Assembly (NCBI GenBank): GCA_937923735.1 | Contig: CALDUJ010000186.1 | Span: 1 to 33,455, forward strand | Reading direction: 5' to 3' | Origin: an uncultured Flavobacteriaceae bacterium | GTDB taxonomy: Bacteria; Bacteroidota; Bacteroidia; Flavobacteriales; Flavobacteriaceae | Length of the DNA: 33,455 bases | In this document: one piece after another, positions 10,720 to 33,120 of the stretch | Position numbering within the stretch: position 1 is the stretch's first letter | Layout of the letters: the number at the start of each line of letters is the position of its first letter | Translations under genes and position numbers: made by a program | The notes under the pieces: generated by a model | Told to the model about the DNA's origin: nothing | The model's input: the letters and a program-made list of their open reading frames with translations, nothing else | Databases searched by the model: none

Positions 10720-12501
10720 TTAATTTTCAAGGTTTACCAAATGCTCCTCAAGACGTTTAATCCTATTATTATAAGTTTTTTTTAAAACCCCAATTTCATG
10801 TGCTTGCTCTTTTATGGCATTAATTAGTATTGGGATGAGTTCAGTATAACTAATACCGAGTGTTTTGGTTGTATCGTTATTTACTGATACAATTTCCTTG
10901 ATAATGGGTTGTACCTCTTGTGCAATTAATCCTAAAGATTTATGTGCTTGGTCTCTGTTTTTCCAGTTATACGTTTTGGGTTGCAGTTGTAGTACCTCTT
11001 TTAAACCATACGGTAAGATTTCAATATCTTTTTTAAGGCGTCTGTCTGAGCTATGTATTGTTGTGCTATTTTGTTTTATAATACCAGATTCGAGAACCTC
11101 AAAAACAACGGAATTATCTCCATTTATAATTTGAAATTGCCCAGTCTCATTGTTATCATTATCGAGACGTATTGAAACAGCATCATTGCTTTGTATAACA
11201 ATATCGCTTGATGTAAATTGAGGGTCGGATGTAATAAAACCATTATCGGCAGACGAAGAATTTCCTCCTAATATTAAATCTGGCTCTGTACCTATTGTAT
11301 TTTTTGCCATGGTTAAACCATCTACAGCTAAATCTCCATCTAGGATATTAAAGTCACCACTATTTTTAAACTCGAATAAAGGTGTGCCCCCGATGCCATT
11401 AAAAATCAGTTTGTTCTCACCACCAGATCCAATACCATTATATTCTAGACTCATACCAGAACTAACATCTGGATTCTCTGTTTCAGAAAAAAGTAATGTT
11501 GGTCTTTTTGAATCATCAGATTCTAATATAGCAACAATGGTTTGTGTATTTGGTATTCCGAAATGTTTGACGTGTAATTTAGCTAAAGGTTCTCTGTGTC
11601 CAATAGCAAGATTACCATGAAATCCTAGGATACGGCTATTAAACTCTCCATAAATTAAAGGAAAATTGGTGGAACCGTTGTGGATATATAATTTATCATC
11701 CCCTGTAGATTGTTGCCCAGCTCTATGTCCAATAAATACACAACCATTCCTATCCTCAATTATGTTAGTGGAGCCAGCATAAGTGCCTATAGCTACATTA
11801 CGACTTCCTAAACGAGAATCTTTAAAAGCAAATGCACCTATGGCTACATTTTGACTGCCTTCCGTATTGTTAAACCCAGCAAGATTACCGAAGAAACTAT
11901 TGTCTCCACCCAAAGTATTGCTAAATCCAGCATTACTACCAACTGCTGTATTATGATCTGCAGTTGTATTTTTTAATGCGCCAGCTCCAATGCCGACAAC
12001 ACCCTCGTAAGCACCCTGAGCACTTAAGCCAGCGTCTTTACCTAAAAAAAAGGAAAAACCATCATCAGACTTACCATCTTCTAAATCATCAATTTTAATA
12101 CTTTCTGCCGAAACACTATTTGCGTGTAGGGCATAAGGCACAGATTTAAAGCTTGTTGAACCCATATAAATATAACTGCCATCTTGATTTATATCGATTT
12201 CCGTTGCCATTGAGTGGTTGTTATTACTCCAATTTATGGTAGAAAAATCGCCAGTTATAGCAGTGCCTTCGCCAATGTTTAAAATAATAAGCCCATTGGT
12301 GTCTGTTGTTACCGTATGTGTTTCTTCAAAAATACCTATAGGGCCTTCAAAAATGGTAAAGCGAACATCTATGGTTTTATTAACTATAATATTACCAACA
12401 TCATCTTTGATTATAGCTTTATAATTAATGCCTTCTTGGGCATAAAAAGTGATTGATAAAAACAGAAGAACTAGGATAGCAATTTGTTTTTTTGTATTCA
12501 T
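10720..12501 (-). CDS. secreted tail-fibre-like surface protein with S74 self-cleaving chaperone domain
   Basis: The ATG at 12501 gives 593 residues with a proper signal peptide (MNTKKQIAILVLLFLSITFYAQ). The longer frame to 12609 runs through the operator sites and was rejected. Residues ~25-165 are a beta-rich region. Residues ~180-270 carry YadA-head-like repeats (NTAVGSNAGFSN, NSFFGNLAGFNN, NVAIGAFAF, NVAIGTYAG), typical of trimeric left-handed beta-roll stalks. The end has the S74/intramolecular chaperone signature SDRRLKKDI, with S485 and K490 at the five-residue spacing of the endosialidase catalytic dyad, then GLIAQEV and a C-terminal coiled coil. Family knowledge: this domain folds the trimer and then cleaves itself off. 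The protein is probably a trimeric cell-surface appendage. It is the first gene of the apparent operon with the sensor kinase and regulator. Confidence 0.88.
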   Translation of the reverse strand: MNTKKQIAILVLLFLSITFYAQEGINYKAIIKDDVGNIIVNKTIDVRFTIFEGPIGIFEETHTVTTDTNGLIILNIGEGTAITGDFSTINWSNNNHSMATEIDINQDGSYIYMGSTSFKSVPYALHANSVSAESIKIDDLEDGKSDDGFSFFLGKDAGLSAQGAYEGVVGIGAGALKNTTADHNTAVGSNAGFSNTLGGDNSFFGNLAGFNNTEGSQNVAIGAFAFKDSRLGSRNVAIGTYAGSTNIIEDRNGCVFIGHRAGQQSTGDDKLYIHNGSTNFPLIYGEFNSRILGFHGNLAIGHREPLAKLHVKHFGIPNTQTIVAILESDDSKRPTLLFSETENPDVSSGMSLEYNGIGSGGENKLIFNGIGGTPLFEFKNSGDFNILDGDLAVDGLTMAKNTIGTEPDLILGGNSSSADNGFITSDPQFTSSDIVIQSNDAVSIRLDNDNNETGQFQIINGDNSVVFEVLESGIIKQNSTTIHSSDRRLKKDIEILPYGLKEVLQLQPKTYNWKNRDQAHKSLGLIAQEVQPIIKEIVSVNNDTTKTLGISYTELIPILINAIKEQAHEIGVLKKTYNNRIKRLEEHLVNLEN

Positions 12502-12520
12502 AATAATGATTTTTAGATTA

Positions 12521-12594
12521 TGCAAATTGCTGATAATGAGCATATTTTTATTCAGGGAAATTCCTGAAATTTCAAACTCAGGGAATTCCCTGAG
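12521..12594 (-). promoter_or_regulatory. composite promoter/operator of S74-kinase-regulator operon
   Basis: Three elements lie 20-93 bp upstream of the ATG at 12501. On the minus strand TCAGCAATTTGCA covers 12521-12533. Upstream of it an imperfect inverted repeat (TTCAGG-N6-CCTGAA, 12551-12568) and a perfect 18-bp palindrome CTCAGGGAATTCCCTGAG (12577-12594) have centres 26 bp apart. The spacing from TCAGG to the TTGCTGA element is 18 nt, exactly as at 12915-12987. This fits two regulator dimers activating a core promoter. The TTGCA element deviates from the usual TAnnTTTG box, as activator-dependent promoters often do. Confidence 0.7.
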
Positions 12595-12607
12595 GTTTTT
12601 TAAAAGC

Positions 12608-13588: not shown

Positions 13589-15913
13589 ATGCTAAGAAAA
13601 CTAATTGCTATTATATTAATAATTATTGCTGTATACTGGAGTTTTTCTGCTTTAATGCCTAGTAAAATATCAACGCTTAATGCCGATAAAAACACCTTTT
13701 CTACCGAGAGAGCTTTGGTGCATTTAGCTGCTATTTCCCAAAAACCACATTATGTAGGAAGTCCAGAGCATGCAAAGGTTAGAGATTATATTGTAAAAGA
13801 ACTTGAAGGACTTGGTCTAGAAACCCAGATACAAGAAGGCTACAGCATTAGTAAATGGGGCAATATGGCAAAACCTAAGAATATCTTGGCGCGTATTAAA
13901 GGAAGAGAGAAAGGCAAAGCCTTAATGCTATTGTCTCATTACGATAGTAGTCCACACAGTTCTTTAGGTGCCAGCGATGCAGGTTCTGGAGTCGTCACAA
14001 TTCTTGAAGGCTTAAGAGCATACCTCTCTGAAGGGAAAACACCAAGAAACGACTTGATTATTTGTATTACAGACTCTGAAGAGCTTGGACTTAACGGCGC
14101 AGATTTATTTGTAAATCAGCATCCTTGGGCTAAAGAGGTAGGATTGGTTTTGAATTTTGAAGCACGAGGTAGTGGCGGGCCTAGTTATATGCTTATTGAA
14201 ACTAATGGTGGTAACGCTAATATGATGAAAGAATTTGTAGAAGCTAACCCCAAATATCCAGTAGCAAATTCACTAGCATATAGTATATATAAAGAATTAC
14301 CAAACGACACCGACCTGACAATTTTTAGACGTGATGGCGATATCGAAGGATTTAATTTTGCTTTTATAGATGACCATTATGATTATCATACGGCCAACGA
14401 TTCGTATGAGCGATTGGACAGAAATACCCTAGAACATCAAGGGTCTTATCTTATACCTTTATTGCATCATTTTTCTGAAGCCAATTTAAATAATTTAAAG
14501 AGCGACAAGGATAGCATTTATGTAAATATGCCTGTTTTTGGAATGGTGACTTATCCTTATTCATGGATATTCCCCATTCTTATTGTTTGTACTCTACTCT
14601 TTTTAGTAATGGTGCTATATGGAATTAAAAAGAGAAAGTTAGATGCTTCTGAGGTAGGCAGAGGATTTATACCATTGTTAATATCACTTATAGGAGTGAT
14701 TATAATAGGTTATGTACTATGGGAATTACTTAAAAGTATCTACCCAGAATATTCAGAGATGTTGCATGGGTTTACCTATAACGGTCATACATACATTGCT
14801 GCATTTGCTATGTTAGCATTAACCATCTGTTTCTGGGTGTATCATAAATTCCATAAACCAGGCAACGTGGCCAGTCTTTTAGTGGCGCCTTTAACTCTTT
14901 GGATATTAATCTCTGCGTTAACAGCATTCAAGTTAAAAGGTGCTAGCTTCTTTATTATCCCTGTAATTTTTGGACTTATAAGTCTTTATGTCTTGATGCG
15001 TCAAAAGAAACCGAGTTTGGTATTACTAGCATTATTGTCTTTCCCCTTACTTTTTGTCATATCACCTTTCATAAAAATGTTCCCGATAGGGTTGGGCTTC
15101 TTTATGGACATTGGTAGTATTGAAATTTCAATGAAAGTCATCTCCATGGTGTTTGTGGTATTAATCTTCGGATTATTACTTCCTGTGTTTGGATTCTTTA
15201 AGCACAAGAAACGCTGGTCTTATCTAACGCTTACGTTAGCTATTATCTTTTTGTTGAGCGCCCATTTTAATTCAGATTTTACAGAAAATAGCCCAAAACC
15301 AAACAGCTTGGTATATGCTTTTAACGCAGATGATAATACAGCTATTTGGGCGACCTATGATGATTTGTTGGACGATTGGACTAAGAATTTCTTGGGCGAA
15401 GATCCAGACATAGTTGATGCCTCTTCCAATACCTTTGGTAGCAAATATGGAACAGGTTACACCTATACAAAGCGTGCTCCTGTAAAGCAAATACAGCAAC
15501 CATATGTAAATATCAAGAGAGATACTGTTATTGGCGATTTGCGCCATATAAATATGCACATATCACCACAGCGAAGAGTGAATCGAATGGAATTGTTTGC
15601 AGATAAGAGTGTTGTTTTCAAGGATTTCAACATAAACGGCGTAGATGTTTACAAAAAAAATGAAGAGGCTAATGCTTTTGAAAATAGATGGCGCAACAGG
15701 TTATTTAGTTTTTATGTATCTGATAGCGATTCATTAAACCTCACCTTTAGTGTACCTAAAGAACAAGAGACAAAATTCACTTTATATGAGGCATCTTTCG
15801 ATTTATTGGACAACGTACAATTTACGGTTCCAGAAAGGCAAGACGGCATGATGCCAAAGCCATTTGTGTTAAATGATGCGGTTATGGTCAGGAAGACGAT
15901 TATTGTGGATTAG
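13589..15913 (+). CDS. membrane-bound M28-family zinc aminopeptidase
   Basis: The 774-residue protein has an N-terminal membrane anchor (residues 4-24), an M28 peptidase domain at about 40-300, eight predicted membrane helices between about 325 and 565, and a non-membrane C-terminal domain. The zinc site is complete: H117 (LSHYDSSPHS), D130 (GASDAGSG), catalytic E164 with ligand E165 (DSEELG), E191 (FEARG) and H267 (DYHTAND). This layout resembles eukaryotic ER metallopeptidase 1 (Fxna) and many Bacteroidota homologues. The catalytic domain is probably periplasmic and cleaves N-terminal residues from peptides. The gene appears monocistronic. Substrate unknown. Confidence 0.93.
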   Translation: MLRKLIAIILIIIAVYWSFSALMPSKISTLNADKNTFSTERALVHLAAISQKPHYVGSPEHAKVRDYIVKELEGLGLETQIQEGYSISKWGNMAKPKNILARIKGREKGKALMLLSHYDSSPHSSLGASDAGSGVVTILEGLRAYLSEGKTPRNDLIICITDSEELGLNGADLFVNQHPWAKEVGLVLNFEARGSGGPSYMLIETNGGNANMMKEFVEANPKYPVANSLAYSIYKELPNDTDLTIFRRDGDIEGFNFAFIDDHYDYHTANDSYERLDRNTLEHQGSYLIPLLHHFSEANLNNLKSDKDSIYVNMPVFGMVTYPYSWIFPILIVCTLLFLVMVLYGIKKRKLDASEVGRGFIPLLISLIGVIIIGYVLWELLKSIYPEYSEMLHGFTYNGHTYIAAFAMLALTICFWVYHKFHKPGNVASLLVAPLTLWILISALTAFKLKGASFFIIPVIFGLISLYVLMRQKKPSLVLLALLSFPLLFVISPFIKMFPIGLGFFMDIGSIEISMKVISMVFVVLIFGLLLPVFGFFKHKKRWSYLTLTLAIIFLLSAHFNSDFTENSPKPNSLVYAFNADDNTAIWATYDDLLDDWTKNFLGEDPDIVDASSNTFGSKYGTGYTYTKRAPVKQIQQPYVNIKRDTVIGDLRHINMHISPQRRVNRMELFADKSVVFKDFNINGVDVYKKNEEANAFENRWRNRLFSFYVSDSDSLNLTFSVPKEQETKFTLYEASFDLLDNVQFTVPERQDGMMPKPFVLNDAVMVRKTIIVD

Positions 15914-15984: not shown

Positions 15985-16228
15985 GCTTGATTGACAGAAA
16001 AGTTTTATTAAAAAATTTGTTTGTATCCATTTTTTTTTTTTTTAGATTTAGCCTGTTGAATGCAAAACTTTTGGTCATGTCTGGCGAAAATGGAGCAGGA
16101 GACACGTATATACAAATATCCGCGCGGTTTATTTTTAAAATGCTGAACTCGTTTCAGTACTTCCCAACAAAACCCTTAGCGTGTTAATAGCAAAATAACA
16201 AATCGAGACCTAGACAACCTCGTGTTTG

Positions 16229-16344: not shown

Positions 16345-16641
16345 ATGAGAAAATTATTTTTATGTATGTCTTTTTTCGTTGCATTTAGTTTGATGAGTTT
16401 TGCCAATACCAATGAAATGGATGTTATAGTTGACAAAGATTTCAGCACCGAGATTACGGATGCAAACTACGAAATACAATATGAAATTGTAGAATATGCA
16501 TACGATCATTGTACGATTACCGTCACCGTTACAAATTCAAGTGGTAGTTATTCAGCGACAGCAACAAATAATCAAGGCGATTGTGTTGCTGCCCAGGCTG
16601 CCGCTTCGAGAATGGCTCGTCTAATGGCTGAGTTTAATTAG
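16345..16641 (+). CDS. small secreted protein of unknown family
   Basis: The 98-residue protein has a clear signal peptide (MRKLFLCMSFFVAFSLMSFA, cleavage near residue 20), leaving a mature acidic protein of about 78 residues. It contains an alternating beta-prone stretch (CTITVTVTNSSGSYSATATN), two cysteines in the mature part (C56 and C80, possible disulphide) and an Ala-rich C-terminal helix (VAAQAAASRMARLMAEF). No family is recognised. It is the first gene before a GLPGLI protein and a TonB-type barrel and is separated from them by a strong inverted repeat, so it may be made in larger amounts than they are. A role as ligand, cargo or partner of the barrel is speculation. Confidence 0.75.
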   Translation: MRKLFLCMSFFVAFSLMSFANTNEMDVIVDKDFSTEITDANYEIQYEIVEYAYDHCTITVTVTNSSGSYSATATNNQGDCVAAQAAASRMARLMAEFN

Positions 16642-16664
16642 TAACTTAATAAATTATAAAAACA

Positions 16665-16703
16665 AGCAAGTAAAATCTTGTAAAAGCCAGGGTTTTACTT
16701 GCT
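16665..16703 (+). other. long intercistronic stem-loop between small secreted protein and GLPGLI genes
   Basis: AGCAAGTAAAA (16665-16675) and TTTTACTTGCT (16693-16703) form a perfect 11-bp stem with a 17-nt loop that repeats part of the stem sequence (GTAAAA). It has no T-run on the plus strand after it, so it is not a standard terminator. It ends 13 bp before the GLPGLI start codon and could slow 3' decay of the upstream message, attenuate read-through, or occlude the downstream start. Confidence 0.65.
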
Positions 16704-16716
16704 ATAATATAAAAAA

Positions 16717-17481
16717 ATGAAAATTCTCTTATTTTTATTGACATGTGTGTCTTTATATGCTCAAAATTCTGGTCGTGTAGAATATATGCATGTAACTAGA
16801 ACTTCAATAGATTATAAAACTACAGCAGTATTCGAATTTAATAGTGAAGTTTCAAAATATAGAGTTCTTAAACATAATCAATCTCCAAAGGAAATAACCA
16901 GTACTTTTGAAGATAATAACTTGACTGTTTTTATGCCTGAATCTAAATTTAGGCCAGAATATTTTGTAGATATATCTTCTAACATGCTGTTAAGCTATAA
17001 GTATATGTTTAAAAAAAACAACTTGTTAAAGGAGGCGATCCCTAAGATTGATTGGAAAATTAAAGATGAGTTTAAACTTTTGAACACTATTAAATGCCAA
17101 AAGGCTATTGGCTATTTTAGAGGTAGAACATATAGCGTATGGTTTGCAAATGATATACCTGTGCCTTATGGGCCATGGAAATTACAAGGATTGCCAGGGG
17201 TTATTTTAGAAGCACAAGATGATAAGAGCGAAATATTTTTTAAAGCAACGAAAGTAACGCTACAAGACATGAATGATATAGAGCTTCCAGATATTAAAAA
17301 AGCAATATCTTTAAAAGAGTTTATAACGGTTGTTATACCAGAAAAAAATGAGGAATTAGCAGCGTTTATGAACTCAAAGCAAGCAGATAGAAATACTACT
17401 GTTTCAGCTTTTAAACCTAATCGGAATACATTTAAAGAGATTATATACGAATGGGAAGACGGGTATCCCAAACAAGATTAG
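16717..17481 (+). CDS. GLPGLI-family secreted protein
   Basis: The 254-residue protein has a short signal peptide (MKILLFLLTCVSLYAQ) and the full hallmark of the GLPGLI family: a WKIKDEF strand, IKCQKAIGYFRGRTYSVWF, then IPVPYGPWKLQGLPGVILE, where residues 158-163 read GLPGVI. The family is restricted mainly to Bacteroidota, is predicted to act in the periplasm or outer membrane, and has no established biochemical role. It is commonly found next to TonB-type barrels, as here, where the barrel gene starts 22 bp downstream. The stem-loop at 16665-16703 lies just before the start. Confidence 0.92.
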   Translation: MKILLFLLTCVSLYAQNSGRVEYMHVTRTSIDYKTTAVFEFNSEVSKYRVLKHNQSPKEITSTFEDNNLTVFMPESKFRPEYFVDISSNMLLSYKYMFKKNNLLKEAIPKIDWKIKDEFKLLNTIKCQKAIGYFRGRTYSVWFANDIPVPYGPWKLQGLPGVILEAQDDKSEIFFKATKVTLQDMNDIELPDIKKAISLKEFITVVIPEKNEELAAFMNSKQADRNTTVSAFKPNRNTFKEIIYEWEDGYPKQD

Positions 17482-17503
17482 CTTTAATTTAATTACATGA
17501 CGT

Positions 17504-20194
17504 TTGCTGAAATTACCTAGACATTACAGATATACATTCTTTTTTATTTGTTCTATTATTCATAATTTCACTAATGCGCAAACCAATGTTGTTGGGCTCA
17601 TTACAGATGTAAAAAATGAGCCAATTCCTTACACTAACATTGTATTAAAAGCATCAGATTCTTTAGCCTCAATTATTGCTTATACTTATGCTGAAAATAA
17701 TGGTAAATACAATTTAGAAATTGACAAAACAGGTGATTTTAATTTGGTAATATCTTCATTAGGCTACGAACAAAAAATAATCCCAATACAAATTGATGGT
17801 ATAACAAAAGAGGTCACTAAAAACGTGTCTTTAATTGAACGCACTTTTGAGTTGGACGAAATTATTATACAAAACGAGTTGCCTATTAAAGTTGGGAGAG
17901 ACACTATTACATTCAATGTGCAAAAATTCATTAGAGGCAATGAGACAGTGATAGAGGATTTGCTTAAAAACTTACCAGGGGTTAATGTCGATGTTGATGG
18001 TAAAATAACTATTGGTAACCAAGAAATAGAGAAACTCATGGTGGATGGTGATGATCTTTTTGAAAAAGGTTACACGATTCTCTCCAAAAACTTACCAGTA
18101 CATCCGGTTGAAACTGTAGAGATATTAAAAAATTACTCTAACAATAGGCTACTTAAAGAGATTGAAAGTAGTAATAAAGTTGCTGTTAATTTAAAACTTA
18201 AAGAAGGCGCTAAAAATATTTGGTTTGGTAATGTTACATTAGGTTATGATATAGAGTTTAATAGCCGTTACAATGTAAAAGGGAATTTAGCTAATTTTGG
18301 AAAGAAAAATAAATACTACTTTTTAACAAACCTTAATAATACAGGAGATGATGCAACCGGGGATATTAACCAGCTTATAAAACCCATTCGTTTTAATGAG
18401 CCTGGTAGCATTGGTGATGATCAACGTATATTCAACTTAAACAATTTGTCATCTTATGTTCCTAACTTTATGCCTGGAAGAACTAATTTTAATAATGCAG
18501 AATTAGTATCGTTAAATGCGATTTTTAATATTACTGATAAAATTAAGTTAAAAACACTGGCGTTTTTTAACAGCGATGAAAATGATTTTTTTAGAAATAG
18601 TACAGAAAACTTCAATAGTAATCAAACTAATTTCACGAATTCAGAAGATTTTGTTTTAAGGAAGCGTAAACAAACAGGTTTTGGAAAAATAGATTTAATT
18701 CATAATATATCTAAAACTAAATCACTAGAAATAACCACCAAATACAACAAGAGAAATCAAGATAGTCGCTCGGACTTAATCTTTAATAACATTTCTACTA
18801 TCCAAGAATTAGGCACAGCAAATACTCTTTTTGACCAAAAAATCAGCTATACAAATAGATTTAAAGAGAAAAAAGTATTTATCTTAACGGGTCGATATAT
18901 TAATGAGAAATCACCTCAAGCATATAATATTAACCAGTTTTTTTATCAAGATCTTTTTCCAGAAATAGATAACGCTGATAGTGTGTCTCAATTAAGTGAA
19001 AACAAATATAGATTTGCTGGTTTTGAAAGTCATCTTTTAGATAGGAAGAAAAATGGAAATCTATTTGAATTAAAGGTTGGGAATGAAATTAGAATAGATG
19101 ATTTAAAATCAATATTTAGCGTTTATGATCAAAACATACTAATTGAACAACCTGAAGGATTTCAAAACAACTTGAAGTACACTACTAATGATTTTTACTT
19201 TAAGTGTAAGTATCTTCTGAAGATAAATGAATTTGGCTTTGAAGGGAATTTGGAGTTTCATCAATTATTCAATAAAATTCAATTTATCGATAATGATATA
19301 AATGAAGTTCCCTTTTTTATAAATCCTGGTTTTCGTATTAATTGGAAAATAAATAGCAAAAACGAGATAAACACTTCTCTAAGTTACAATGCAACGAATG
19401 CAGATGTGTTAAGTACAACAAATAATTTTTCGCTTACTGGATTTCGTTCCTTTTCTCAAGGAACAGGAAGTTTTAATCAACTCAGAGCTTCAAATTATTT
19501 TATTAATTATCGATTGGGAGATTGGGGCGATCGCTTTTTTGCAAGTGCAACTGTTAGTTATACTAAGAATAATGATTTTTTTTCTACCAATTCATTAATT
19601 AGTCAAGATTTTTCATTGTCTGAACAAATCATCATCAATGATTCAGAGTTTTTCAATTCATCTTCTAACATCGACTATTATTTTAAGCACATTAAATCTA
19701 ATCTAAAATTAAATTTAGGCTATTCTAAGTCTAGGCTTAGTAATATTGTTAATGAATCAGATTTTAGAGAAGTTAATTCTTCCAATAATAATTATGGTTT
19801 AAAGTTACGTTCTGGATTTAAAGGCGTTTTTAATTATCATTTTGGGACTGAATGGACTTTCAATAAAATAGATGTTGGTGAATTTGGAAATTCATTTACA
19901 GATAATGTCAGTTTTTTAGATTTAACATTCGCGTTTAATGATAAGTTCAACTTTGATTTGAAAAGCGAACGTTATTATTTTGGAAACTTGCAATCCAATA
20001 ATATATTTTATTTTTTGGATGTTAACGCAAGATACATGGTCAAGAAAAACAAAATGACTCTGTTTTTAGATGCAAGAAACCTATTTAACACTAGGCGCTT
20101 TCAAAATTTTTCTATAAGTGATATTAGCAGTTCTACAACAGAATACAGACTCTTACCCAGGTATGTTCTGTTAAAACTTGAATACCGGTTTTAA
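17504..20194 (+). CDS. TonB-dependent-receptor-like outer-membrane beta-barrel with regulatory domain
   Basis: The 896-residue protein has a signal peptide ending near TNAQ (residue 26), a carboxypeptidase-like regulatory domain at about 28-105 (VVGLITDVKNEPIPYTNIVL), a plug-like domain at about 125-240 (VIEDLLKNLPGVNVDVDGKI, PVHPVETVEILKN) and a long beta-barrel that ends in aromatic LEYRF, as outer-membrane proteins do. It probably imports or binds a ligand at the outer membrane with its GLPGLI partner; the substrate is unknown. The only in-frame start is TTG at 17504, as TGA at 17498 closes the frame upstream. An ATG at 17497 is out of frame and ends after seven codons. Either TTG is the true start or a single-base difference has shifted the natural ATG. 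Confidence 0.9.
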   Translation: MLKLPRHYRYTFFFICSIIHNFTNAQTNVVGLITDVKNEPIPYTNIVLKASDSLASIIAYTYAENNGKYNLEIDKTGDFNLVISSLGYEQKIIPIQIDGITKEVTKNVSLIERTFELDEIIIQNELPIKVGRDTITFNVQKFIRGNETVIEDLLKNLPGVNVDVDGKITIGNQEIEKLMVDGDDLFEKGYTILSKNLPVHPVETVEILKNYSNNRLLKEIESSNKVAVNLKLKEGAKNIWFGNVTLGYDIEFNSRYNVKGNLANFGKKNKYYFLTNLNNTGDDATGDINQLIKPIRFNEPGSIGDDQRIFNLNNLSSYVPNFMPGRTNFNNAELVSLNAIFNITDKIKLKTLAFFNSDENDFFRNSTENFNSNQTNFTNSEDFVLRKRKQTGFGKIDLIHNISKTKSLEITTKYNKRNQDSRSDLIFNNISTIQELGTANTLFDQKISYTNRFKEKKVFILTGRYINEKSPQAYNINQFFYQDLFPEIDNADSVSQLSENKYRFAGFESHLLDRKKNGNLFELKVGNEIRIDDLKSIFSVYDQNILIEQPEGFQNNLKYTTNDFYFKCKYLLKINEFGFEGNLEFHQLFNKIQFIDNDINEVPFFINPGFRINWKINSKNEINTSLSYNATNADVLSTTNNFSLTGFRSFSQGTGSFNQLRASNYFINYRLGDWGDRFFASATVSYTKNNDFFSTNSLISQDFSLSEQIIINDSEFFNSSSNIDYYFKHIKSNLKLNLGYSKSRLSNIVNESDFREVNSSNNNYGLKLRSGFKGVFNYHFGTEWTFNKIDVGEFGNSFTDNVSFLDLTFAFNDKFNFDLKSERYYFGNLQSNNIFYFLDVNARYMVKKNKMTLFLDARNLFNTRRFQNFSISDISSSTTEYRLLPRYVLLKLEYRF

Positions 20195-20277: not shown

Positions 20278-20964
20278 ATGAAACGATTAATACTATTAGC
20301 GTTGTTGATTGGAGGCACTTCCGCTTTCTCGCAAACAAACACAGAACTACTTAAGCACTTTGAGGCCTACTACAAGCAGATGAGATTACAGGGCGATGTA
20401 CAAGGTGCCATTAATGGATTAACACATTTGGATGTGTTGCAACCATCTCAAGCGAAGAAAGATACCTTGGCCTATTTGTACTTCTCCGAAGGTAAAAGCA
20501 TGCAGGCCTTAAATGTTATTGGTATTGAAAAAAACGCAACAGATTCGGAGATAGCAGTTGAGGTAAAGGCTCTGGCCTTAAAAGCGGTTAATCAACCAAA
20601 ACGTGCTTTAGAGCATTTTGAAGTTATGTTTTCCCGTAAACCAAATGTTTTATTGGCTTATGAGATGGCTGATTTAAAATTGCAAGTAAATGACCTGGCA
20701 GGAGCTAAAGCAAATATTGAATATGGCTTAGCAAATGCAAAAGATGAAATGCGCGCTTTTTACGAAACACAAACGCCATACCAAGTGCCAGCCAAGGCGG
20801 CACTGCTATACTTAAAGAGTATTGTTACCCTTAGTGAGGACCGAACAGCCAATCTGGATGCTGCTTTAGGGCTTCTGAATCAAGCACTACAAATTGAGCC
20901 AAATTTTAATATGGCTGCGGTAACCAAGAATGCATTATTAGCTGGAAAGAACACCAAAGAATAA
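20278..20964 (+). CDS. periplasmic tetratricopeptide-repeat protein
   Basis: The 228-residue protein has a signal peptide (MKRLILLALLIGGTSAFSQ) followed by helical repeats consistent with degenerate TPRs, for example SEGKSMQALNVIG, NQPKRALEHFEVMFSRKPN and LDAALGLLNQALQIEPN. It would be a periplasmic or surface scaffold with no enzymatic motif. It follows the barrel gene by 83 bp on the same strand and may belong to the same transcript. A strong bidirectional terminator lies just after it. Confidence 0.8.
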   Translation: MKRLILLALLIGGTSAFSQTNTELLKHFEAYYKQMRLQGDVQGAINGLTHLDVLQPSQAKKDTLAYLYFSEGKSMQALNVIGIEKNATDSEIAVEVKALALKAVNQPKRALEHFEVMFSRKPNVLLAYEMADLKLQVNDLAGAKANIEYGLANAKDEMRAFYETQTPYQVPAKAALLYLKSIVTLSEDRTANLDAALGLLNQALQIEPNFNMAAVTKNALLAGKNTKE

Positions 20965-29997: not shown

Positions 29998-32900
29998 ATG
30001 CGCTTGAAAATTATACTTTTAGGTTGTTTTTTGTATTCCACAATATTATGGTCTCAAAATCCTGATGCTATTATTCAGCAATTAGAGAAGCAAGCAGATT
30101 CAATTTATTTAAATCAAAATCAGTATTATTCCTCGAGTGAATTCAAAAAAGGAATTTCCATATACGACGATGCATTAAAACGCATCAATGACAAGCAAAA
30201 TGAGCGTTATAAAAAGATTTTGGCAAAAAAGCTTGCTACAAAAGCTGCATATTATGAATATACTCATAATACTGATTCTGCAATAGTCTATTCAAAAAAG
30301 TCCATAACCCTTCAAGAACAGTTTAAACATCCAAATAAATTATTCTTAGGGCTTACTCATAAACGCTTATATCAGCAATGGTATACATTAAACGAGTACG
30401 ATTCCACAATAGTTGCTGCAAGATTGGCCAAACAAATATTTGCGGATACGCTTGGTGATAACCATGAATTAATTGCAGAAGCAATCTTCAATATTGGTGG
30501 GGCATATGCCAGAAAAGGAGAAAGAGATAAAAACATAGAATACTATAAAAAAGCCATTGCAATGAATATTGCTGCTAATGGCGAATTCACACCAGAAGCC
30601 GCTTACCAAGAACATCATTTGGCACTTACATATGGTTTTATAGGTTTTTATAAAAAAGAATTAGAGAGCTATAAAAAAGTTGTAAGGCGTTGGGAAGCCA
30701 TTCCGGACTATAAAGACATGAGTTATTTGAGTGTGGCGTATGGTGCATTATCTACCTGGTATTTGCAGCATGGCGATTTAAAAACAGCTGAGCAATATCT
30801 TTTAAAACAGGAAGCCTTAATTAAATCTCGAAAACAAGATTTAAAACATTGGTATAACGAAACCTTTAAGGGTCGTACTCAAACACGAATTTGGTATAAT
30901 AAAGCAAATCTGGCGCTATACAAACAGGATACTCTAAACGCTATTGCATTTAACGATAAGGCATTAAACTTTATAGCGAACTTCGATAGAAACGACCCAA
31001 AAAATAATCCACATAATCTATCATACTCTAACAATTTCGTGGATTTACAGCATATGAAATCTTTGAGGCTCAAAGCAAACATGTTTAAAACAAGTCGTCC
31101 TGAACAAGCAAATGCAATCAACGAGAAGATTTTAAAATTAGAGCGAAAAGGAGAAGTTCCAACCGTAACATTACAAGAAAAACTCAATATCTTGGATTTT
31201 CATTTGGCGTCTAAAAACGTATCAAAGGCCAAAACCAAAATGACTCATTATTTAGCTCAAGCTAAAATAGCCAAAAGCGATTATGTGTTAATGCACTTGT
31301 ATGCAAAGAAAGCAAAAATAGCACTTTTACAGGAATCTTATGAACAAATGGATGGCTTTTATAAAACTGTTTTTAATAAACTACAGCGAGATAGTTTGCA
31401 AGCCATTCCAATACAAAAGTTGAAGCCTAACGATTGTAAACCATACGGAGATGGTCGAATTGTAAATATGATTTTAGATGCTACCAAGAATTATTCCAAG
31501 GCATACGAGTCAACATCTAAAAGTGATTATTTAGGCAAAGCATATAATTTAAGTGTATTAGCATCCAGTATTTTTTCAGAAAACTATAGTTATTCACCAT
31601 TTAATGATGCCAAGTATAATAAAGCAAATCAAATCAACGAACAGTTACTTAATATGGCATTATTATTTAAAGATAATCTTGCAGTTGATGAGGTGTTGCA
31701 GAGCATTGAGTTGAATGGGTCCAAATTAAGTTGGAAAAAATTCTTAGCTAGTAATCAACGTGAAAATCTTAACATCTCTGACTCTATTATAGAAAAGGAA
31801 AATGATCTGAAATCACAACTTCATTTTTATAAAAAACAATTGTTTGTAAATAATGAATCGGATCAAGATAAAGTAAAGCTTTTCAGAGAGAAATTATATG
31901 ATGTTGAAACCGAAATAGAACGACTAGAAGAATGGTATCAAACTAATTACCCTGGTTATTTCAGTCAAACTCAAAAACCATTTGATGTAACAGAACTAAA
32001 ACAAAAGTTAAGGAAGAAACAACAGGTTATTAAGTATGTGTTTGCAGAAGATAATGTGTATGCATTTTCAATAGCTAAAGACTCAATAAGTCTTCTCAAA
32101 TTAGCTTCAAAAAAAGAAATACTTGATAAATTAAAACCATTTGTTAGGACACTTAATAAATTAAATTCAGATAATTATAAAACTTTAGCAAAAGAAGTTT
32201 ACACACTTTTATTACCACCGCCTTTATTGAATACTGCTAAAAAACAAAGTCTAATCTTTGTCCAAGATGATGTTTTAAGTTATGTGCCAATGGAAGTTCT
32301 ACTGGATGCTGAAGGGAAATACCTAATAGAGTCTCATGCGGTAAGTTATGCACCATCGCTATTACTTTGGAACGAACAATTAAAGGTCAAAAAATCCAAG
32401 CGCAATAAAATGGGCGTTTTTGTGCCATCCTATAAAAAACAAAAAGGGAACAACCCAAAGCGTGACGATGATTCAGATTTATTGGGAGCAAATACGGAGG
32501 CAATAACTATTAGTAAATTGTTTAACTCTGATGTTTTTTCTGGAAACGAAGTGAGCAAAGCACAATTTCTTAGTACAGCTAAAAACTATAACATACTGCA
32601 TTTAGCAATGCATTCGGCCATTAATGAAACAGATGCAGAGTTTTCTAATTTGAGATTCTCATCAGATGATGATGGGAAACTATTTATATCTGAGCTTTAT
32701 AATATGAATCTCAATGCAGATCTTGCTGTGCTGAGTGCTTGTAACACAGGCTCTGGTAGTTTAAAAAATGGAGAAGGACTCATAAATGTGTCGCGCGCCT
32801 TTACCTATGCTGGCGTACCAAGTACAGTAACTAGTCTCTGGAAAGTGCCAGATCAAGAAACATCGCAAATCATGATTTCCTTTTATAAATATTTAAAAGA

Positions 32901-33120
32901 AGGGAAAACAAAGAATAGCGCCTTACAACTTGCTAAACTTGAATATTTAGAGATTACCAAAGATGTTGAGTTAAGGCATCCATACTACTGGGCTGGATTC
33001 GTTATTTCGGGAGATATTGAACCTATTACTAATGGAAATAACATTTGGTTTTATGTTCTTGCATCAGGAGCTCTCATACTGTTCTTATTTAGAAAAAAGC
33101 TATTCCAGTTTTTTAGCTAA
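29998..33120 (+). CDS. secreted, membrane-anchored TPR-CHAT (caspase-like) protein
   Basis: The 1040-residue protein has a signal peptide (MRLKIILLGCFLYSTILWSQ), a TPR superhelix from about 50 to 450, a helical region to about 690, a CHAT domain at about 760-1005 and a C-terminal membrane helix at about 1016-1032 (IWFYVLASGALILFLF) followed by a basic tail. The CHAT caspase-type dyad is present: H872 in LHLAMH and C915 in LSACNTGSG, followed by GEGLINVSRAFTYAGVPSTVTSLWKVPD. The layout places the whole protease-like part in the periplasm with a short cytoplasmic tail. Most studied TPR-CHAT proteases (Craspase, gasdermin-linked) are cytoplasmic, so this version is different. No gasdermin, CRISPR or toxin gene is adjacent. 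Proteolytic activity is predicted, not shown. Confidence 0.92.
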   Translation: MRLKIILLGCFLYSTILWSQNPDAIIQQLEKQADSIYLNQNQYYSSSEFKKGISIYDDALKRINDKQNERYKKILAKKLATKAAYYEYTHNTDSAIVYSKKSITLQEQFKHPNKLFLGLTHKRLYQQWYTLNEYDSTIVAARLAKQIFADTLGDNHELIAEAIFNIGGAYARKGERDKNIEYYKKAIAMNIAANGEFTPEAAYQEHHLALTYGFIGFYKKELESYKKVVRRWEAIPDYKDMSYLSVAYGALSTWYLQHGDLKTAEQYLLKQEALIKSRKQDLKHWYNETFKGRTQTRIWYNKANLALYKQDTLNAIAFNDKALNFIANFDRNDPKNNPHNLSYSNNFVDLQHMKSLRLKANMFKTSRPEQANAINEKILKLERKGEVPTVTLQEKLNILDFHLASKNVSKAKTKMTHYLAQAKIAKSDYVLMHLYAKKAKIALLQESYEQMDGFYKTVFNKLQRDSLQAIPIQKLKPNDCKPYGDGRIVNMILDATKNYSKAYESTSKSDYLGKAYNLSVLASSIFSENYSYSPFNDAKYNKANQINEQLLNMALLFKDNLAVDEVLQSIELNGSKLSWKKFLASNQRENLNISDSIIEKENDLKSQLHFYKKQLFVNNESDQDKVKLFREKLYDVETEIERLEEWYQTNYPGYFSQTQKPFDVTELKQKLRKKQQVIKYVFAEDNVYAFSIAKDSISLLKLASKKEILDKLKPFVRTLNKLNSDNYKTLAKEVYTLLLPPPLLNTAKKQSLIFVQDDVLSYVPMEVLLDAEGKYLIESHAVSYAPSLLLWNEQLKVKKSKRNKMGVFVPSYKKQKGNNPKRDDDSDLLGANTEAITISKLFNSDVFSGNEVSKAQFLSTAKNYNILHLAMHSAINETDAEFSNLRFSSDDDGKLFISELYNMNLNADLAVLSACNTGSGSLKNGEGLINVSRAFTYAGVPSTVTSLWKVPDQETSQIMISFYKYLKEGKTKNSALQLAKLEYLEITKDVELRHPYYWAGFVISGDIEPITNGNNIWFYVLASGALILFLFRKKLFQFFS

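Follow-up and report, generated by a model that had tools for sequence, protein, structure and literature searches.

Three open reading frames follow one another on the forward strand of the DNA that was analysed (a stretch of 33,455 nucleotides from an uncultured Flavobacteriaceae bacterium, here called the window). They occupy positions 16345-16641, 16717-17481 and 17504-20194, where an earlier note, made from the letters alone, had placed a small secreted protein with two mature cysteines, a GLPGLI protein and a TonB-type barrel. The first ORF (98 aa) begins with a signal peptide recognised by eye (about residues 1-20), and its mature part, the variable cargo of the proposal made below, contains both cysteines (Cys56 and Cys80). 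It had been called unrecognised and remains so, since Pfam gave nothing above the cut-off and NCBIfam nothing at E <= 1.

The second ORF encodes a protein of 254 aa with an N-terminal signal peptide (by eye), which is proposed below as a cognate periplasmic carrier. Its assignment to the GLPGLI family (TIGR01200 / Pfam Porph_ging) is clear: it matches TIGR01200 with 129.4 bits (cut-off 50) and an E-value of 1.7e-37, and carries the motif GLPGVI at residues 158-163. A nearly invariant motif is kept across the 69 members of alignment A5, which consists of the window protein and 68 of 73 GLPGLI references (not included are L120, L121, L141, L152 and L158, which are near-duplicate or incomplete). 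Neither family entry, TIGR01200 or Porph_ging, names a function. The predicted structure (pLDDT 92) is a LolA-type half-barrel with a C-terminal helix, and it can be superimposed on the N-domain of PNGase F-II (4r4x; Z 14.6) and on LolA (2w7q; Z 10.2, rmsd 3.5, 138 aligned residues).

The third ORF (896 aa, TTG start) carries at residues 31-122 an extension that matches CarbopepD_reg_2 (PF13715; E 2.5e-8, above the cut-off) and is found in all four members of alignment A1, window included. We identify the protein as a TonB-type outer-membrane barrel, in agreement with the note, on the basis of this domain, its alignment to relatives and a weak OMP_b-brl_3 match (E 0.00077) in one of the four aligned barrel proteins. 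The Pfam plug domain PF07715 was not reported for the window barrel or its aligned relatives. Residues ~150-235, which are well conserved in the relatives, and the sequence LDEIII before them look plug-like and TonB box-like to us, respectively, a likeness that does not rest on computation. The barrel core is conserved, and the N-terminal extension is the most variable part.

The strong stem-loop that had been noticed after the small gene lies at positions 16665-16703 of the forward strand, between the small gene and the GLPGLI gene, and was borne out by folding (16 bp stem, loop of 7, -20 kcal/mol, z -4.5; 0 of 200 shuffles equally good). A hairpin with z <= -3 was observed in 53 of 62 family loci vs 4 of 61 controls; its position and energy are conserved, its sequence is not. 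Only 16 of 59 family hairpins are followed by at least five T in nine bases, and the window hairpin by three. Owing to the missing T run most of them are not classical terminators, and the terminator reading was mostly rejected. The Bacteroidota promoter pattern is TTG, 15-22 nt and TAnnTTTG. This pattern was not found upstream of the window small gene, and its frequency upstream of the small genes in general (7 of 57 loci; mononucleotide shuffles gave 1.4 on average and at most 4) is too weak to use.

Conservation of the three-gene unit

A plain homology search with the full 98-aa protein nearly missed the family: matches were obtained in 3 of 60 genomes, its own included, and the other two were weak (E ~1e-3, residues 6-52 and 7-71), with no GLPGLI among the ORFs listed nearby. 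A search with the mature part gave 5 matches among 397, again including its own; those in L011, L012 and L013 truly adjoin a GLPGLI gene and a barrel gene, and that in L014, inside an OmpA-like protein (by eye), was set aside as chance. No small-protein homologue was found in a search of genome contigs. The family was found from the neighbours of weak small-protein matches and then by searching with the barrel.

For the association count, the barrel alone was used to collect loci (the 80 best among at least 103, plus the window), so that the association of the barrel with GLPGLI and small genes is not circular. Six of these 81 loci, with less than 1.3 kb upstream, were left out. In 74 of the 75 testable loci a GLPGLI gene lies directly upstream of the barrel gene, and in 60 of the 75 a small signal-peptide protein with at least two cysteines precedes the GLPGLI gene, vs 9 of 330 control genes. 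By eye, 12 of the 15 loci in which the count missed a small gene show the gene or a remnant of it. It should be mentioned that a locus with several GLPGLI genes could score through any of them, and that the loci do not represent independent observations (L119, L120 and L121 are ~95% identical, and further locus sets overlap the 80). Of the nine control genes that scored positive, three (L095, L116 and L122) look by eye like the same kind of secreted small protein.

The three-gene unit is carried by many Bacteroidota, mainly Flavobacteriaceae, and the loci with it come from many genera. The association is restricted to particular barrel clades: of 21 loci of a different, likewise common GLPGLI-barrel type, only 1 has a small cysteine protein, which means that a further function must exist for GLPGLI and barrel. 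Among the 12 largest clusters of neighbouring genes, that of the small proteins ranks first (21 loci), followed by another CarbopepD-type barrel family (recognised by eye from its sequence; 11 loci, in varying places) and then by flanks of close relatives; no third constant partner gene was found among these 12, and only the small proteins keep their place outside close relatives. A RiPP modification enzyme or peptidase-ABC exporter was absent from the window genes scanned, and none had a fixed place in the 12 clusters (not every neighbour was scanned).

The observed synteny allows some freedom. Tandem pairs of different small proteins occur in, for example, L089, L113, L123, L134 and L151, and some loci, such as L140 and L096, have more GLPGLI genes than small genes (four and one, respectively, in both), so that the extra ones lack a small gene of their own. 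Of 72,556 plasmid records, two match at E <= 1e-60. A plasmid locus, L232, has four small genes, two GLPGLI genes and one barrel gene between transposase genes, and its small genes encode near-identical signal peptides with different cores. The gene order is not universal, since in L232 the barrel gene stands first.

Variable small proteins and exchange of cassettes

Both cysteines are kept in at least 90% of the 71 small proteins of alignment A4 (the window protein and 70 others), whose members were chosen with at least one cysteine; one disulphide is probable, but this is inferred. Another alignment, A6, contains the window protein and 31 small proteins picked by eye as the two-cysteine type; L116 and L151 were excluded from it because of faulty coordinates. 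A lipobox-like motif was found in none of a separate set of 71 that was not filtered on cysteine. When 71 small proteins were compared with NCBIfam and Pfam, only scattered weak matches were obtained, and no convincing toxin family was seen among the matches listed (25 of 51 NCBIfam and 25 of 44 Pfam families). Similarly, no T9SS C-terminal sorting domain was matched in the window protein by NCBIfam, and no T9SS tail occurs in the 25 of 51 families listed for the 71. DUF6520 (PF20130) gave weak matches in 10 of the 71 (best E 0.0023) and none in the window protein.

The small protein is predicted to fold into two beta-hairpins and a C-terminal helix (AF2 model, mean pLDDT 81). Foldseek found no match to this model among solved structures at E <= 0.001, and the best VIA-align Z was 7.6, a value that common arrangements also reach; the profilin-like and dsRBD-like matches are therefore not read as evidence of function. 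Across loci the mature proteins are hypervariable, unlike their signal peptides. For the mature part, two close pairs have a dN/dS near 1 (1.12, at a dS of only 0.04, and 1.19), whereas the value is 0.34 in a third close pair and 0.09-0.13 in two pairs that have diverged further.

This variation is shared with the GLPGLI protein. In 46 loci (only those with one GLPGLI gene), the identity of the small proteins correlates with that of the GLPGLI proteins when the barrel core is taken into account (partial r 0.57; 0 of 2000 permutations). GLPGLI identity tracks the small protein and not the barrel, and the signal peptide tracks the barrel. In 21 locus pairs with barrels 80-90% identical the median identities are 32% for GLPGLI, 27% for the mature small protein and 81% for the signal peptide; at barrel identities of 80-97%, the GLPGLI median is 72% if the small proteins are at least 40% alike (n=6) and 31% if they are less than 30% alike (n=12). 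Exceptions were observed: L161 and L162 have GLPGLI proteins 60% alike and small proteins 22% alike, and between L084 and L119 the small proteins are 44% alike but the GLPGLI proteins only 35%. When the barrel core is taken into account, barrel segment 27-110 still correlates with the type of small protein (partial r 0.27) and with GLPGLI (partial r 0.22; 0 of 2000 permutations each). These latter correlations are weak, and proximity to a recombination breakpoint could account for them.

In genome pairs such as L098 and L145, the replacement begins in or just after the signal-peptide codons. The small gene and the GLPGLI gene are swapped together as a cassette, and the barrel gene behind them is conserved. 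That the breakpoints of this exchange lie at the signal-peptide codons suggests that selection favours differences among related strains, as it does at toxin-immunity or pheromone loci.

Possible roles of the unit

That the three genes form one system, as the earlier note had suggested, is strongly supported as far as comparison of sequences can support it, by conservation, by small-GLPGLI co-variation and by a positionally conserved hairpin. The note's own check, a search for the small gene beside other GLPGLI-barrel pairs, was run, and the non-conservation that would have refuted the idea was not encountered. Of the three roles it had offered for the small protein (ligand, plug or exported product), the exported product fits best, although export itself is inferred.

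We therefore propose a polymorphic secretion cassette made of a small cargo, a cognate GLPGLI carrier and an exporting TonB-type barrel, a reading that we consider to have an even chance of being correct. The cargo would be made with a Sec signal peptide and would fold in the periplasm into a compact miniprotein of two hairpins and a helix, probably with one disulphide. GLPGLI, as a LolA-fold half-barrel, may hold it there and hand it to the CarbopepD extension of the barrel, which would move it across the outer membrane; both the carrier role and the direction of transport are inferred. The hairpin may protect or separate the small-gene mRNA and so lead to an excess of cargo over carrier and barrel, an excess that is likewise only inferred. 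Lineages would recombine the mature cargo, the GLPGLI gene and the 5' end of the barrel gene, using the signal-peptide codons and the barrel as flanking homology, and such recombination would imply that a cargo unlike that of neighbours is selected for, in antagonism, kin recognition or signalling, any such activity being an inference. It is important to mention that export, binding and a disulphide all lack experimental evidence, that LolA-type folds bind many things and a common fold shows no function, and that small-GLPGLI co-variation fits an immunity partner equally well. Roles in immunity or uptake are not excluded.

The small protein could instead be a narrow-range bacteriocin and GLPGLI its cognate periplasmic immunity protein, with the barrel as exporter or as uptake receptor of sister cells. 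The joint switching of small protein and GLPGLI and the replacement of cassettes agree with this, the extra GLPGLI genes of L140 and L096 resemble orphan immunity genes, and tandem different small proteins recall two-peptide bacteriocins. We nevertheless regard it as unlikely, given that neither the nearly invariant motif of the 69 GLPGLI members nor a GLPGLI-barrel type with hardly any small protein (1/21) is expected of a pure immunity protein, and that the matches listed contain no convincing toxin family. Somewhat less probable still is an uptake system, in which the small protein, secreted or on the surface, would act like a hemophore or SusD by binding a ligand and bringing a substrate to the barrel, and GLPGLI would receive it in the periplasm. 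TonB-type barrels are mostly importers, and the LolA/LprG-type fold of GLPGLI would suit such a task, but the small protein is extremely variable while the barrel core is conserved, it is small and without a lipobox-like motif (0/71), and its own way out would be left unexplained. Finally, linkage could have kept an unrelated gene for a periplasmic product (e.g. a folding or stress factor) near the barrel, with synteny as mere operon inheritance, but this is already disfavoured and very improbable, because the small gene is present in many genera although other neighbours differ (as judged from the 12 largest clusters), its sequence switches together with GLPGLI and the place of the hairpin is conserved.

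Comparison with known systems

No description of a unit of small protein, GLPGLI and barrel was found in the open-access papers searched (preprints excluded). GLPGLI occurs in published regulon gene lists, and no link to a variable small secreted protein was seen in the part of the literature naming GLPGLI that was available to us. Returning to the secretion cassette, the unit suggests a dedicated route for putting diverse small proteins outside the cell, and it offers a testable function for GLPGLI, which is unassigned in the family libraries searched, with the conserved hairpin as a simple handle on expression ratios. The wider claim, of a new Bacteroidota outer-membrane secretion pathway in which TonB-powered CarbopepD barrels export disulphide-stapled miniproteins with their own LolA-fold GLPGLI carriers, the cassettes being exchanged as a recognition or antagonism repertoire, is made tentatively, and we rate it a little short of even. 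If true, it would give a first function to GLPGLI proteins and to a share of Bacteroidota CarbopepD-type barrels.

Small folded proteins would then join the possible exports of TonB-type barrels, for which one precedent was found. Oar, a TBDT with a CarboxypepD_reg-type extension, is needed for secretion of PopC in Myxococcus xanthus (PMC6434023). An N-terminal extension of this type is also present on the window barrel, and outward protein transport from the periplasm is proposed. PopC is a 50.8 kDa protease without a signal peptide, whereas the cargo here is small, Sec-type, hypervariable and encoded together with a cognate GLPGLI, and its export is inferred. Since TBDTs of Oar architecture dominate in Bacteroidetes, according to PMC6434023, this architecture alone is not proof of secretion.

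The predicted GLPGLI fold is common to LolA, LolB, RseB and the N-terminal bowl domain of PNGase F-II. The cargo of LolA and LolB is lipoprotein, whereas a lipobox-like motif is absent from the small proteins (0/71), whose cargo role is inferred; unlike PNGase F-II, GLPGLI has no match to a glycosidase catalytic domain (Pfam, NCBIfam). DUF6520, to which some of the small proteins show their weak likeness, is of unknown function.

In comQXPA-type pheromone loci and polymorphic toxin-immunity loci, a cargo and its partner vary together between conserved flanks and are exchanged by recombination. The same pattern of co-variation and exchange is observed in this unit. As in polymorphic toxin-immunity loci, a variable protein co-varies with its neighbour, although for toxicity and neutralisation there are no data; and the unit differs from both kinds of loci in that it has no recognised kinase, processing enzyme or toxin domain, and in that its conserved flank is an outer-membrane barrel.

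A three-gene unit with a small gene kept by position

The open reading frames that an earlier note had assigned to a small secreted protein (16345-16641), a GLPGLI protein (16717-17481) and a TonB-type barrel (17504-20194) were all found at these coordinates. On its sequence, the second gene is certainly GLPGLI (TIGR01200, E 1.7e-37), and the third encodes a CarbopepD_reg_2 domain. The small gene is probably the first of the cluster, because the nearest upstream gene of recognised family, encoding an M28 peptidase, ends at 15913, and a 66-codon ORF at 15987-16187 gave no family match above the cut-off and was left uncounted. The next same-strand gene after the barrel encodes a TPR protein (20278-20964) and is not constant beside the barrel in relatives. 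Elsewhere in the window, another TPR protein (29998-33117), with a C-terminal CHAT domain (PF12770, 1.5e-60), adjoins a DUF3109 protein, and a 628-aa protein encoded on the minus strand (10723-12606) matches Pfam only through an S74 endosialidase chaperone domain close to its C-terminus.

Direct homology searches with the small protein gave few relatives, but the genuine ones (in loci L011, L012 and L013) all adjoin GLPGLI and barrel genes, immediately 5' of them; loci were therefore collected by the barrel only, with neither the small protein nor GLPGLI as bait. At E<=1e-100, the barrel was found in 32 of 397 family genomes, own genome counted. The named set consists of the best 80 of 103 loci from the barrel search, mostly Flavobacteriaceae by title, with Pedobacter and Sphingobacterium also represented. 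Among the 75 loci, window counted, that extend 1.3 kb or more upstream, GLPGLI lies immediately 5' of the barrel in 74. A protein of 55-160 aa that has a signal peptide and two or more Cys, encoded no more than 450 nt from a GLPGLI start, was detected in 60, compared with 9/330 when the same criterion was applied 5' of further long ORFs (roughly 200 codons and longer) at these loci. A small gene or its remnant is visible by eye in 12 of the 15 failing loci (with another start codon, a single Cys, a frameshift or damage to the copy); for the remaining misses, the contig end is too near in L107, L158 is masked, and in L133 neither gene nor remnant was seen by eye within 900 nt. The spacing between the small gene and GLPGLI is usually about 60 nt (median 61, n=62). 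The earlier proposal that the three genes form a unit is thus upheld: such a unit does exist and is widespread, and it includes the small gene, which is kept by position and not by sequence.

A second GLPGLI-barrel type is present in the own genome on contig C188 (locus L019), with three GLPGLI genes, one 934-codon barrel frame and no small protein. Its tandem GLPGLI genes, two of them with Gly/Arg-rich C-termini, lie 5' of the barrel frame (C188, 3738-9423), and the neighbours resemble, by eye, sensor kinase and response regulator genes. A survey covered 40 GLPGLI regions from family genomes with a match, and barrels scoring at least 550 to the C188 barrel were classed by us as C188-type. A small protein with at least two Cys was found in 1 of 21 C188-type regions (a doubtful ORF), in 7 of 12 with another barrel type, and in 1 of 7 without a barrel in the stretch (L205, a window-type locus). 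The small gene, rare in the first class and frequent in the second, therefore marks certain clades; in some of these, the two-Cys or four-Cys proteins look different and more helical by eye. Other GLPGLI-barrel clades with small Cys proteins are represented by L195, L196, L199, L201, L204, L206 and L207, several being helical-looking by eye and not of the beta-hairpin type. A barrel relative of 34% identity is present on the Flavobacterium plasmid NZ_CP092371.1 (L232, 22718-35348), flanked on each side by transposase genes. Here the barrel precedes three small genes, two GLPGLI genes and a fourth small gene, and thus the gene order differs from that of the window; the signal peptides of the four small proteins are nearly identical while their cores are unlike, and a hairpin of -20 kcal/mol separates the third small gene from GLPGLI.

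The hairpin after the small gene

In the window, the gap separating the small gene from GLPGLI holds a 16-bp hairpin (16665-16703; -20 kcal/mol, z -4.5). Across 62 loci, the interval from the small-gene stop to the GLPGLI start has z<=-2 in 57 and z<=-3 in 53 (median -18 kcal/mol, median stem 14 bp), compared with 14/61 and 4/61 for equal lengths directly 5' of the small gene. Where the stem has 9 bp or more (59 loci), it begins at a median distance of 10 nt from the stop and encloses a loop of median 4; among 25 examples, the sequences themselves vary from locus to locus. Termination would be one role for this element, but only 16 of the 59 hairpins have at least five T in the nine bases past the stem, and we therefore infer that it more probably serves to protect or process the mRNA of the first gene.

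Joint exchange of small protein and GLPGLI

In an alignment of 71 small proteins, picked for having at least one Cys, Met1 alone is invariant, and Lys2 and two Cys (C56 and C80 in the window) are nearly so. A separate set of 71, without the Cys filter, has two Cys past residue 18 in 50 proteins, four in 10, three in 9 and one in 2, and contains no lipobox-like motif (0/71). The signal peptides are strikingly similar across many genera (e.g. MKNVFFALAFMLVGTFAFANN), whereas the mature parts are dissimilar: their median identities are 21-27% in every bin below 90% barrel identity, close to what shuffled sequences give (median 19%, 95th percentile 26%). For the window's mature protein, the AF2 model (mean pLDDT 81, first residues poor) has two beta-hairpins and a C-terminal helix; one Cys (mature residue 36) lies on a strand and the other (60) where the helix begins, and a disulphide between them is inferred. 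No convincing match to the model was found among solved structures. Tandem pairs of unlike small secreted proteins precede one GLPGLI in L083, L089, L113, L123, L134 and L151, one member often having a Trp-containing W..C segment; these are possibly two-component products.

Over 62 loci, small-protein similarity correlates with that of the adjacent GLPGLI (r 0.58; 0/2000 permutations as high, maximum 0.10) and weakly with that of the barrel (r 0.18). Given the barrel core, the partial correlation with GLPGLI is 0.57 (46 single-cassette loci; 0/2000, maximum 0.17). Exceptions are L161/L162 (GLPGLI 60%, small proteins 22%) and L084 with L119 or L120 (small proteins 44%, GLPGLI 35%). The signal peptide tracks the barrel core (partial r 0.42, 0/2000) and not GLPGLI (0.04, 377/2000), with only a trace for the mature part (0.09, 64/2000), which places the crossover inside the small gene. 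The Maribacter loci L098 and L145 show this directly: they are 96.6% identical as far as small-gene nucleotide 56, beyond which blastn found no match across the mature small protein, GLPGLI and the barrel gene start; barrel similarity resumes at about residue 108 (24-92% in 25-residue windows to residue 244) and reaches 99-100% identity in the final seven of twelve 75-residue bins. Homology also ends within the small gene in L084/L088 (nucleotide 69), L087/L095 (82) and L090/L099 (24). Some cassettes are more alike than their barrels, as in L092/L157 (small 84%, GLPGLI 78%, barrel 61%), which suggests that a cassette can be transferred without its barrel. Arrays of four GLPGLI genes 5' of the barrel, with just one small gene seen, occur in L140 and L096; the extra copies resemble orphan partners remaining from earlier cassettes.

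Evidence on selection is thin. In two close pairs, dN/dS is 1.12 and 1.19 for the mature small protein, 0.16-0.22 for GLPGLI and 0.12-0.15 for the barrel; a third gave 0.34, 0.34 and 0.09, respectively, and two divergent pairs gave 0.09-0.13 for the mature small protein.

Proposed function and known systems

The GLPGLI model (pLDDT 92, pTM 0.86) matched PNGase N-terminal domains in Foldseek (7zgn, 1.4e-7; PNGF-II 4r4x, 5.7e-7), with Z 14.6 on structural alignment to 4r4x and about 9-11 to LolA, RseB, VioE and ependymin-like folds. Over 69 members, the FRGR...GLPG region has several residues that are fixed or almost fixed; despite this, overall GLPGLI identity shifts along with that of the small protein. 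Within the barrel, variability is highest in the CarbopepD segment (residues 27-110, mean identity 34%, vs 47-71% past residue 160), and this segment tracks small type (partial r 0.27) and GLPGLI (0.22) beyond the barrel core, each 0/2000; the plug-like region tracks less (0.10 for GLPGLI, 35/2000). A contact of GLPGLI with the CarbopepD extension would fit these values; linkage to the recombination breakpoint is an alternative.

In the best reading, the small protein would be a polymorphic cargo, GLPGLI its cognate LolA-fold carrier and the TonB-type barrel its exporter, the function being inferred. A bacteriocin with GLPGLI as its immunity protein is not excluded, nor is an uptake system with the small protein as ligand-binding partner.

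Searches of the open-access literature, preprints excluded, found no published description of the three-gene combination, the cassette exchange or the conserved hairpin. The parts themselves are known families, the small protein excepted. The precedent for export is the TBDT Oar, which shares with the barrel an N-terminal extension of the same kind and is required for PopC secretion (PMC6434023). Since the same paper describes this architecture as dominant among Bacteroidetes TBDTs, it is compatible with export and is no proof of it.
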